Translations under genes and position numbers: made by a program
Part shown: positions 6,970 to 33,533 of the stretch, piece by piece
Layout of the letters: every line of letters begins with the position of its first letter
Position numbering within the stretch: position 1 is the stretch's first letter
Origin: Lysobacterales bacterium
Lineage (GTDB): Bacteria > Pseudomonadota > Gammaproteobacteria > Xanthomonadales > Rhodanobacteraceae
Length of the DNA stretch: 64,000 nucleotides
Assembly: GCA_021324945.1 (NCBI GenBank)
Contig: JAJPID010000039.1
Coordinates: 40,892-104,891, forward strand
Direction: 5' to 3'
The notes under the pieces: generated by a model
What the model was told of the DNA's origin: nothing
The model's database searches: none
Seen by the model: only the letters and a program-made list of their open reading frames with translations

Positions 6970-8046
6970 TCAGGCCGCGCCACAGTCCGCGCACTGTCGC
7001 GCGCGTGTGGCGTGCACCGGCATGAGGCGCGGGGTTCTGCGCTGCGCCTCACGCTGGCCGAAGATCATGCCGCCCAAGATCAATGCGCCGCCCAGCGCCA
7101 TGCTGAGCGTCAATGCTTCACCGAGGAACAACCAGCCCCAAGTCACGCCGAATGCCGGCACGAGGTAAACCACCATTGCCGCGCGCGTGGCGCCGATGCG
7201 GCGGATCAGATCGAAATAGATGGCATAGGCGATGCCAGTACACAGCACGCCCAGCGTGATCACGCTGCTCCAGTCGCCTGCGGAGAGCGCATGCTGTGGC
7301 CACGCCAGCCATGCGAACGGCGCGAGCAGCACGGCGCCGCTGGCCAATGTCGCCGCCGCCAGCGCCGCAGATGGCAGATCGGATAAATAACGCTTCAGCA
7401 GATTCGCGGAGATGCCGTACATCAGCGCGGCCAGCGTGCCGGCGCCGACAGCGGCGCCAATGTTTGCGCCAGCTACATGGCCGCTGGCGAGCACGATCAC
7501 GCCGACCAGCCCGGCCAGCAGCGCGGTGGCGCGACGCCTGCCGATGCGCTCGCCGAACAATGCGAATGCGGCCAGTGCAGCGAACGGCACCGCCATACTG
7601 TTGGAGATCGCGCCGATACCGGCCGGCGCGCGTTCGGCGCCCCAAGCGAACAGCAGGAATGGCAGCGTGGTGTTGATCGCACCGATGCCGATGATCGGCA
7701 GCCAGCGCGAGCGCGTGAACCGTGCGCGTGCGCGCAGCAGGAACGGCAGCAGGATCAGCGCGCCCAGCGCCAGGCGCACTTCCACCAGCGGCAAAGGGCC
7801 GAAATCCTTCGCCGCCACGCGCTGGAACAGGAACGAGCCGCCCCAGATTGCCGCCAGCGTCACCAGTACCGCGGCGCTGCGCCAGTCGCGCGGCTCGCCG
7901 CTGGCCTTCACGCGGCGACCACCGCGCCGACTGCGCGGAATGTGTCCGGCGTTAGCGCGTTCCAGCAGGCGTGCGGTTTCCGGGCTCATGACGTGGCCAT
8001 GCAGGAACATCATCCCGCCGGCGATTCTTGCAAATTCGTTCAACAT
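6970..8046 (-). CDS. EamA/DMT-family transporter with N-terminal extension
   Basis: The core (from about residue 50) is a ten-helix drug/metabolite transporter with two EamA repeats (LAAIWGGSFLFQRVAA...; LMYGISANLLKRYLSD...), probably an inner-membrane exporter of amino acids or other small metabolites. The ATG at 8046 has a good GGGAG site eight bases upstream and adds a soluble 45-residue segment (NEFARIAGGMMFLHGHVMSPETARLLERA) rarely seen in this family. A GTG at 7911 would give a normal 313-aa transporter but has a poor ribosome-binding site. The gene is divergent from a LysR regulator across 108 bp, a classic regulator/target pair. Substrate unknown. Confidence 0.85.
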   Translation of the reverse strand: MLNEFARIAGGMMFLHGHVMSPETARLLERANAGHIPRSRRGGRRVKASGEPRDWRSAAVLVTLAAIWGGSFLFQRVAAKDFGPLPLVEVRLALGALILLPFLLRARARFTRSRWLPIIGIGAINTTLPFLLFAWGAERAPAGIGAISNSMAVPFAALAAFALFGERIGRRRATALLAGLVGVIVLASGHVAGANIGAAVGAGTLAALMYGISANLLKRYLSDLPSAALAAATLASGAVLLAPFAWLAWPQHALSAGDWSSVITLGVLCTGIAYAIYFDLIRRIGATRAAMVVYLVPAFGVTWGWLFLGEALTLSMALGGALILGGMIFGQREAQRRTPRLMPVHATRARQCADCGAA

Positions 8047-30692: not shown

Positions 30693-30991
30693 TTCTCTAC
30701 GTCGTGGATCTGGATGTGGACGCGGACCTCGCGGAAGAATACCTGCTCTGGTTGCGCGCGCACATGCGGGAAATGCTCAAGCTGCCGGGTTTCATCGATG
30801 CGGAGTTGGTCAAGCGACTCGAACCGCCGTCGCCCGAGGGACGGGTGAATCTCGGCGTGCGGTATCGCCTGCGCGAACGCGCCGCATTCGACGATTACCT
30901 GCGCGAGTATGCGCCGCGCATGCGGGCCGCAGGCGCGCGCTTTGGCGAACGGGTGCGCGCATCGCGGCAACTCATGCAAACACTGGAATGA
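30689..30991 (+). CDS. DUF4286 family small protein
   Basis: A 100-residue cytoplasmic protein whose ATG overlaps the stop of the DUF3667 gene by four bases. The sequence pattern (ILYVVDLDVDADLAEEYLLWLRAHMREMLKLPGF, then VRYRLRERAAFDDYLREYAPRMR) fits DUF4286, a ferredoxin-like alpha/beta domain related to dimeric alpha-beta barrel proteins. No catalytic motif is visible. The coupling suggests that it works with, or is dosed with, the DUF3667 protein. Confidence 0.8.
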   Translation: MILYVVDLDVDADLAEEYLLWLRAHMREMLKLPGFIDAELVKRLEPPSPEGRVNLGVRYRLRERAAFDDYLREYAPRMRAAGARFGERVRASRQLMQTLE

Positions 30992-31325
30992 AGACGGGAC
31001 GCGGTCCGCCGCCATGCGGTTGTGCACAGCGGCAAAAAGCGCTTGTTCTCTGGGCCGCAACGGCGCACATTCGCACTCGACGCCGCGGCAACGAAACACT
31101 ATCTGCTTGATCGGAAAAGCCCATTTCAGTTTGGTGAAAATTTCGCCACGCCGTCGCGGGGCGCGCGCCGACGCCCGTTCCGTGCGCTTGTGCGCACACA
31201 CTTCCACAGCGTTATCCACACGCTCTGTGGATAAGCTGGAAACTTTCGCACCCGTGAGCACTTGCACTGCGTTCCTGCCGAACTCACCAACAAGTGCGCG
31301 CAAGTCGCATGCGTGAGCGCCGCGC
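30992..31325. other. Gene-free region upstream of priA
   Basis: About 330 bases without a credible gene; the short ORFs here lack start signals. The last 120 bases hold a consensus DnaA-box pair (listed separately), and a looser box TTGTGCACA lies at 31020-31028. The priA promoter presumably lies here, but I see no clear -35/-10 pair. Confidence 0.6.
31212..31234. promoter_or_regulatory. Inverted pair of consensus DnaA boxes
   Basis: TTATCCACA (31212-31220) and its exact complement TGTGGATAA (31226-31234) face each other across five bases, about 90 bases before the priA start. Both match the strict 9-mer recognised by DnaA. The sites could control priA or titrate or reload DnaA. The region lacks the AT-rich element and box cluster of an origin. 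Confidence 0.75.
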
Positions 31326-33533
31326 ATGAGCGACGCGCGAGAAATCCTACGCGTGGCGCTGCCGGTGCCGTTGCCGCGTACATTCGATTATCTGATGCCG
31401 CAGAACGGCACAAAGCCGTTGCCCGGGGCACGCGTGGAAGTGCCGTTCGGGCGTGCGCGGCGCATCGGCATCATGCTCGATGCAGCCGAACACTCCGACT
31501 GGCCGCGCGAGCAGTTGAAGCCCGTGCTCCGCGTGCTGGACGAAACGCCACTGTTCACACCGGAATTGTTGAGCAGCCTGCTGCGCGCGGCCGATTACTG
31601 GTGCGGCGCGGCCGGCGAAGTGCTGTTCGGCGCGTTGCCGTCGCGGTTGCGCGAGGACAAACCTTTCCCGCGCGATGAAGACGAAGCGTGGTCTTTGACG
31701 ATCGCGGGCCGCAGCGCGCTGGATGCACGCAGCCGGTGCGGTTCGTCGCTCGCGCTGCTTGCCGCGCTCGCCGAAACGCCGCTGCGCGCGGATGAACTAG
31801 ACGCATTGCTTCCCGAGTGGCGCACCGCGGCGCGGCGCGTGCGCGATGCCGGCCTGATCGAAACGATCGTGCTGTCGGTACGAAATGAATGGCACTCCAA
31901 ACCGCGTTCGCAATCGTTGACGGAAGCACAGCGCAAGGTGCTGGATCAAATTCTCGCCTTGGGCGAAGGTTTTCGTCCCGTATTGCTGGAAGGTGTGACC
32001 GGCAGCGGCAAGACCGAGATCTACCTGGAGCTGATCGAACGCGCGCTGCGGGCGGAAAAGCAAAGCCTCGTGCTCGTACCCGAGATCGGTCTGATTCCGC
32101 AGATGCTGCGGCGCCTGCGTGCGCGTTTCGATGCACCGGTCGCGGTGCTGCATTCGAACCTCGCCGACGGCGACCGCTCGCGCGCGTGGCTCGCCGCCTT
32201 GCGCGGTGAGGCCGCAATCGTGCTGGGCACCCGCTCAGCCGCCTTCGCGCCGCTGCCGGAAGTGGGCCTGATCGTGATCGACGAGGAACACGACACCTCG
32301 TACAAACAACAGGAAGGCAGTTTTCGTTACCACGCGCGCGATTTCGCGCTGATGCGTGCGCAGGCGCTCGACATTCCGATCGTGCTGGGCTCGGCCACCC
32401 CTTCGCTGGAAACGCTCGCCAACGTGCAGGCCGGACGCTACATGCATGCATGCTTGCGCGCGCGTGTACACGCGCGGACGGCCTCGCCAGTGCACGTGCT
32501 GGATTTGCGCGGCTTGAAATTGCACCACGGTCTTTCGCCGGCGTTGCTCGCCGCACTGGACGATTGCATCGCGCGCGGCGAGCAGGCGCTGGTTTTCAAG
32601 AACCGTCGCGGCTACGCGCCGGTGCTGTTGTGTCACGCCTGCGGCTGGCACGCGCGCTGTCCACGCTGCGAACGGCCGCTGACCGTGCATCGCGGCCGCG
32701 CGCGTCTGCTTTGCCATCACTGCGGCTACGCGCAGCCATGGCCGCGGCAATGCCCCGACTGCGGCACGCAGGCGCTCGCTCCGCAGGGCCACGGCACCGA
32801 GCGTCTGGAAGAAGCGCTGCAAGCGCGCTATCCGGCCATACCCGTGCTGCGCGTGGATCGCGAGAGCACGCGACGGCGCGACGCGTTCGAAACATTGCTG
32901 GACAAACTTGCCGAGGGCAAGCCGGCGATTCTGGTGGGCACGCAGATGCTGGCGAAAGGCCACGATTTGCCGAATCTCACCACCGTCGCGATCGTCGGCG
33001 TGGATGAAGGCTTGCACAGCGTGGATTTCCGCGCGGGCGAAAAACTGGCGCAACTGATCGTGCAGGTCGCCGGCCGTGCCGGCCGTGCCGACAAGCCCGG
33101 CCAAGTTTGGTTGCAAACGCACGAACCGCAACATCCATTGCTGACGACGCTGCTGCAAGGTGGCTATCCCGCCGCCGCCACGGAGCTGCTGGACGAACGC
33201 CGCGCATCGGAATTACCGCCCTTCTCGCATCTCGCCTTGCTGCGCGCGGACGCGAAGGATCGCGCTGCGCTCGATGCGTTCATGGATGCGGCGAAAGCCG
33301 CGATGCAAAACGTGCTGGCAACCTCGCCCGTGCTTGAAATACAACTCAATGGCCCGCTGCCCGCGCCGATGCCGCTGCGCGCCGGCCGTCATCGCGCGCA
33401 GTTGTGGGTCGAATCGAACCTGCGCCCGCCCCTGCGCCATGTGCTTTCGACATGGCTGCGGCGCTTGCACGAACTGCCCCAAACGCGCGGACTGCGCTGG
33501 TCGATCGATGTCGATCCGGTGGACGTGTATTGA
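31326..33533 (+). CDS. priA: Primosomal replication protein N' (PriA helicase)
   Basis: A 735-residue superfamily 2 helicase that restarts stalled replication forks by binding fork DNA and loading DnaB. The N-terminal 3'-DNA-binding domain (~1-110) is followed by Walker A (GVTGSGKTE), the Walker B box DEEH, motif III (GSATPS) and two zinc-binding Cys sets (CHACGWHARCPRC; CHHCG...CPDCG). Motif VI is QVAGRAGRADKPG. All parts are present and in order. Its length is normal. It is convergent with rpoH, sharing a bidirectional terminator. Confidence 0.97.
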   Translation: MSDAREILRVALPVPLPRTFDYLMPQNGTKPLPGARVEVPFGRARRIGIMLDAAEHSDWPREQLKPVLRVLDETPLFTPELLSSLLRAADYWCGAAGEVLFGALPSRLREDKPFPRDEDEAWSLTIAGRSALDARSRCGSSLALLAALAETPLRADELDALLPEWRTAARRVRDAGLIETIVLSVRNEWHSKPRSQSLTEAQRKVLDQILALGEGFRPVLLEGVTGSGKTEIYLELIERALRAEKQSLVLVPEIGLIPQMLRRLRARFDAPVAVLHSNLADGDRSRAWLAALRGEAAIVLGTRSAAFAPLPEVGLIVIDEEHDTSYKQQEGSFRYHARDFALMRAQALDIPIVLGSATPSLETLANVQAGRYMHACLRARVHARTASPVHVLDLRGLKLHHGLSPALLAALDDCIARGEQALVFKNRRGYAPVLLCHACGWHARCPRCERPLTVHRGRARLLCHHCGYAQPWPRQCPDCGTQALAPQGHGTERLEEALQARYPAIPVLRVDRESTRRRDAFETLLDKLAEGKPAILVGTQMLAKGHDLPNLTTVAIVGVDEGLHSVDFRAGEKLAQLIVQVAGRAGRADKPGQVWLQTHEPQHPLLTTLLQGGYPAAATELLDERRASELPPFSHLALLRADAKDRAALDAFMDAAKAAMQNVLATSPVLEIQLNGPLPAPMPLRAGRHRAQLWVESNLRPPLRHVLSTWLRRLHELPQTRGLRWSIDVDPVDVY

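Follow-up and report, generated by a model that had tools for sequence, protein, structure and literature searches.

A probable DARS2-type DnaA-reactivating element upstream of priA in Lysobacterales and its class-wide conservation

What is the role of two perfect DnaA boxes that face each other in front of a replication restart gene? The question is raised by a window of 64,000 nucleotides (the whole stretch of DNA that was analysed) from a Lysobacterales bacterium of the Rhodanobacteraceae, in which such a pair occupies the gap 30992–31325, between an ORF that ends at 30991 and priA (31326–33533, + strand), encoding primosomal protein N', the replication restart helicase (NF004067, 938 bits; TIGR00595, 569 bits). 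E. coli is the organism in which DnaA recharging by DARS was elucidated, and its DARS2 has been described as common to close relatives. A sequence-only reading of the window had offered three options for the boxes, namely autoregulation of priA, DnaA titration and DnaA reactivation. Comparative sequence analysis leads us to propose, with a probability of about 0.85, that 31100–31234 serves as a DnaA-reactivating locus of the DARS2 type, and no other was found in this genome; among the three options, architecture and conservation favour reactivation, autoregulation of priA is not favoured and titration is unlikely.

The core of the locus comprises three DnaA boxes. Box II (31212–31220, + strand) and box I (31226–31234, − strand) both carry the perfect consensus TTATCCACA and stand head to head across a 5-bp spacer, CGCTC, which bears out the earlier description of the pair. 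Box III (31200–31208, + strand), the degenerate ACTTCCACA, lies 3 bp outside box II in the same direction; the sequence-only reading had missed it, along with the IHF- and Fis-like sites described below. The resulting series of box I, 5 bp, box II, 3 bp and box III is the core of DARS1 and DARS2 as taken from the E. coli genome sequence itself, including the spacing of the facing boxes and the degeneracy of box III. According to published accounts, the head-to-head pair is both a hallmark of DARS and indispensable to it, and box III has a stimulatory effect (PMC10380432, PMC8682772). Box III appears in aligned relatives as a degenerate NNATSCACA 3 bp outside box II. In a subset of 109 copies fetched without regard to box III (the other copies were partly fetched by the three-box pattern), 92 had CACA on one side of the pair at a distance of exactly 3 bp, none had it on both sides, and the other 17 mostly had a one-letter variant at box III, such as AACA.

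Perfect boxes had been presumed rare by chance, and the counts agree: shuffled windows held TTATCCACA 0.07 times on average, with two matches in 0 of 100, and the genome (2.5 Mb, 67 contigs) holds only three, two of which form the pair at 31212–31234, against 11 for the reversed pattern. The third TTATCCACA lies upstream of argS and has CACA 3 bp away, which gives boxes II and III without box I, and TTATTCACA is located farther up from it (L007:7636–7644 and 7800–7808 in the window's own genome, C23). A full DARS-like core is present upstream of argS in other families of the order, and the argS-side boxes of this genome are possibly a decayed copy. A single weak box, TTTTCCACA, was seen in the dnaA–dnaN gap (L006:7258). 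Given this and the rarity of TTATCCACA, oriC must rely on different box variants or be located at another place.

Activation of E. coli DARS2 needs IHF and Fis (PMC4245941). The gap before priA also contains an IHF-like site, TATCTGCTTGATC (31100–31112, + strand; 7/9 to TAAnnnnTTGATW; offset −111 from the palindrome), and a Fis-like site, GGTGAAAATTTCGCC (31133–31147; only 4/6 to GnnYAnnnnnTRnnC; offset −78), and the weakness of these two sites in the window counts against a DARS2-type assignment. Consensus sequences from PMC4245941 were scored across 200 non-redundant copies at thresholds of at least 5/6 for Fis and at least 7/9 for IHF; the IHF and Fis sites were never used for selection, and copies with more than 70% identity were removed, although the sequences that remain are related and so not fully independent. 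On the side of box III, the IHF consensus was found at −111 to −107 in 161 of the 200 copies (80%; letter shuffles: mean 12.6 or 6%, maximum 22) and the Fis consensus at −78 to −76 in 146 (73%; letter shuffles: mean 8 or 4%, maximum 17), whereas the mirror side of the core gave only 10% for Fis and 0.5% for IHF. Both sites thus have fixed positions in most of the 200 copies, although the Fis site of the window itself is weak. The layout was the same in copies at priA in other orders (Fis 78%, IHF 96%) and in copies that are not at priA (Fis 72–75%, IHF 65–75%).

The sequence-only reading had named missing conservation in close relatives as a finding that would speak against it, and the opposite was found. 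The palindrome is present in 268 of 300 genomes of the order, usually once per genome, with 0 matches for a backward control of two boxes with any spacer of 0–12 bp; the spacer is 5 bp in every palindrome match listed for the 300 genomes, where 0–12 bp was allowed. With at most one mismatch allowed, the palindrome was recovered in 72 of 73 chosen genomes of the order. The sole exception was G136, where priA was recovered as its 3' part alone, at the start of a contig, so that the assembly probably lacks the site. One copy per genome is usual in the two main families. Among named relatives, the site is present in Xanthomonas, Lysobacter, Stenotrophomonas, Dyella, Luteibacter, Rhodanobacter and others. 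Near matches occur in Thioalkalivibrio, Leeia and Acidiferrobacterales. Class-wide, the three-box pattern (at most two mismatches) was detected in 302 of 370 genomes, against 0 for the backward control; outside the class, it is mostly absent, with a few families excepted. One family of the phylum sample outside the class (f195) often has one to several three-box matches. Two further blocks in the gap, 31260–31276 (ACTTGC-N5-GTTCCT in the window; ACTTA/GC...TTC.T in the alignment) and 31288–31303 (GCAA repeats), are conserved only in the Lysobacterales copies at priA, and their distance is fixed to the DnaA boxes and not to the priA start.

The position before priA invites the explanation that the inverted boxes form an operator at which DnaA turns priA transcription down or up in the course of the replication cycle, which was the autoregulation originally suggested. 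The linkage is indeed considerable: the element lies within 300 bp upstream of priA in 47 of the 53 order genomes with both on one contig (measured to the first aligned PriA residue), mostly with the palindrome at 90–220 bp; priA is also the commonest neighbour class-wide (28 of 90 inspected loci, about 16 families), and all inspected copies upstream of priA have one orientation. However, the same element stands at unrelated genes. Within the order, its neighbours are sbcB (exonuclease I) and argS in families f8 and f10, and polA, folE2 and others in f9 (polA and folE2 being identified by their sequence); elsewhere it adjoins uvrB. It is found about 100 bp behind priA, with its core intact, in family f12, and in one genome (G012), three genes separate it from priA while its core, Fis and IHF sites are all intact. 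The element is hence neither confined to the priA promoter nor lost on separation from it. Moreover, its distance to the priA start varies while the inner spacings are constant, and the fixed geometry of IHF, Fis and three boxes is more than a simple operator would call for. The recurrence of the same layout away from priA, together with a core that is intact when separated from or behind the gene, argues that the element most likely acts on DnaA and not as a priA operator, and we consider the operator explanation unlikely. The copies away from priA support an action in trans rather than on priA, although most lineages keep the element at priA in a steady position and orientation, which could also reflect a role in cis.

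Families f8, f9 and f10 (L019–L040, L149–L163) were observed to carry two or three DARS-like cores per genome, which often adjoin DNA repair or replication genes (sbcB, polA). The location of DARS-like sites beside such genes (sbcB and polA; uvrB and mutH in E. coli; priA here) may be a pattern.

Titration of DnaA, or a datA-like lowering of free or ATP-bound DnaA, is less probable still. The boxes have high affinity and are rare elsewhere in the genome, and E. coli datA likewise combines DnaA boxes with an IHF site; three boxes, however, offer little capacity. The effect of datA on DnaA is opposite and its box arrangement is different, and boxes I and II head to head at 5 bp with box III at 3 bp correspond to DARS and not to datA as described (PMC5742627). 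A secondary or main replication origin is hardly credible: oriC also has DnaA boxes with IHF and Fis sites, but in nine genomes of the order, each taken as one circle, the element and dnaA are separated by 2–24% of the chromosome, the window has no GC-skew switch, and the head-to-head boxes are unlike the head-to-tail arrays of oriC (PMC10380432), so that oriC itself is ruled out by distance from dnaA and by box orientation. Neither did other candidates survive: there was no Rfam match and the arms are sequence-invariant and not covarying, which speaks against a structured RNA, and a consensus scan found no simple promoter or terminator.

The DARS2-type interpretation, in which the element most likely works on DnaA rather than as an operator of priA, implies the following sequence of events. 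ADP-DnaA would bind the two perfect consensus boxes, I and II, head to head, and, by analogy with the E. coli DARS, whose spacing is identical, the two ADP-DnaA molecules would make contact and ADP would be released. Box III, whose position is observed, could help by bringing in a neighbouring DnaA and stabilizing the complex, and IHF and Fis, whose consensus positions are fixed relative to the core on the side of box III, would bind there and bend the DNA. The apo-DnaA released would take up ATP to yield ATP-DnaA for the next initiation at oriC, and we infer the timing of this recharging in the cycle as well. The architecture, the exact spacing, the class-wide conservation and the independence from any one gene, in comparison, can be read from the sequences themselves. 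The DnaA of this genome keeps the E. coli residues K178, R227, D269, R285, L290, R334 and R399. Published work counts D269 (at DARS1) and L290 among the residues involved in the action of DARS (PMC5742627, PMC4245941). A Fis homologue is present in the genome, as in 23 of 23 genomes searched, and a second, DnaA-like protein appears to be of the Hda type, an assignment made by size and match only.

We do not claim the existence of DARS outside enterics as new: according to a 2023 review, many species of proteobacteria have conserved sequences that resemble DARS1 and DARS2 (PMC10380432, with reference to Fujimitsu 2009), and some of the present sites may have been listed in Fujimitsu 2009. In the literature that we searched, we found no DARS at priA or in Xanthomonas, and no earlier account of the priA home, the class-wide composite or the core-Fis-IHF geometry. 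A strongly conserved element with a shared IHF and Fis geometry in most Gammaproteobacteria provides a sequence rule for finding DARS elsewhere; the rule also predicts genomes that depend on one site, and it opens the DnaA cycle to direct tests in Lysobacter, Dyella and other organisms. As a tentative and rather doubtful extension, the priA-linked IHF-Fis-DnaA element, which has a core-Fis-IHF geometry of its own, might represent the ancestral DARS in Gammaproteobacteria, DARS1 and DARS2 of E. coli might have descended from it by relocation and re-arrangement, and persistence at priA might tie DnaA recharging to replication restart. The palindrome is absent at all enterobacterial priA loci fetched, and the E. 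coli priA–rpmE gap shows no remnant of the element (best match with 8 mismatches).

Comparison with known DnaA-control loci places the element closest to E. coli DARS2. The latter, in the rppH–mutH region, shares the box I-5-II-3-III core and, tens of bp from it on the side of box III, matches to the IHF and Fis consensus, but its core has 3 mismatches in 22 fixed pattern positions, whereas boxes I and II are perfect in the window. A second DARS-core-like arrangement (L122:2452–2481; 4 mismatches) was seen in the same E. coli gap, about 300 bp from the DARS2 core. E. coli DARS1, in the bioD–uvrB gap, matches the three-box core with 1 mismatch in 22 pattern positions, but shows no match to the Fis or IHF consensus at the offsets seen in the priA-linked element. 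The DARS-like sites of V. cholerae at uvrB and mutH are likewise DARS-like sites outside E. coli, but have other genomic homes than priA (PMC6090056). The genomic home also differs from that of E. coli DARS2 (priA versus mutH), as does the order of sites: core, Fis (−77) and IHF (about −110) in the window, compared with core, IHF (−98) and Fis (main match at −136, another at −54) in E. coli DARS2, so that the E. coli order and spacing are not those found here. Because of this order, we file the element as a DARS2 variant and not as an orthologue, and its activation geometry must differ from that of E. coli DARS2. The two geometries, core-Fis-IHF and core-IHF-Fis, thereby constitute a natural test of bending-driven nucleotide exchange.
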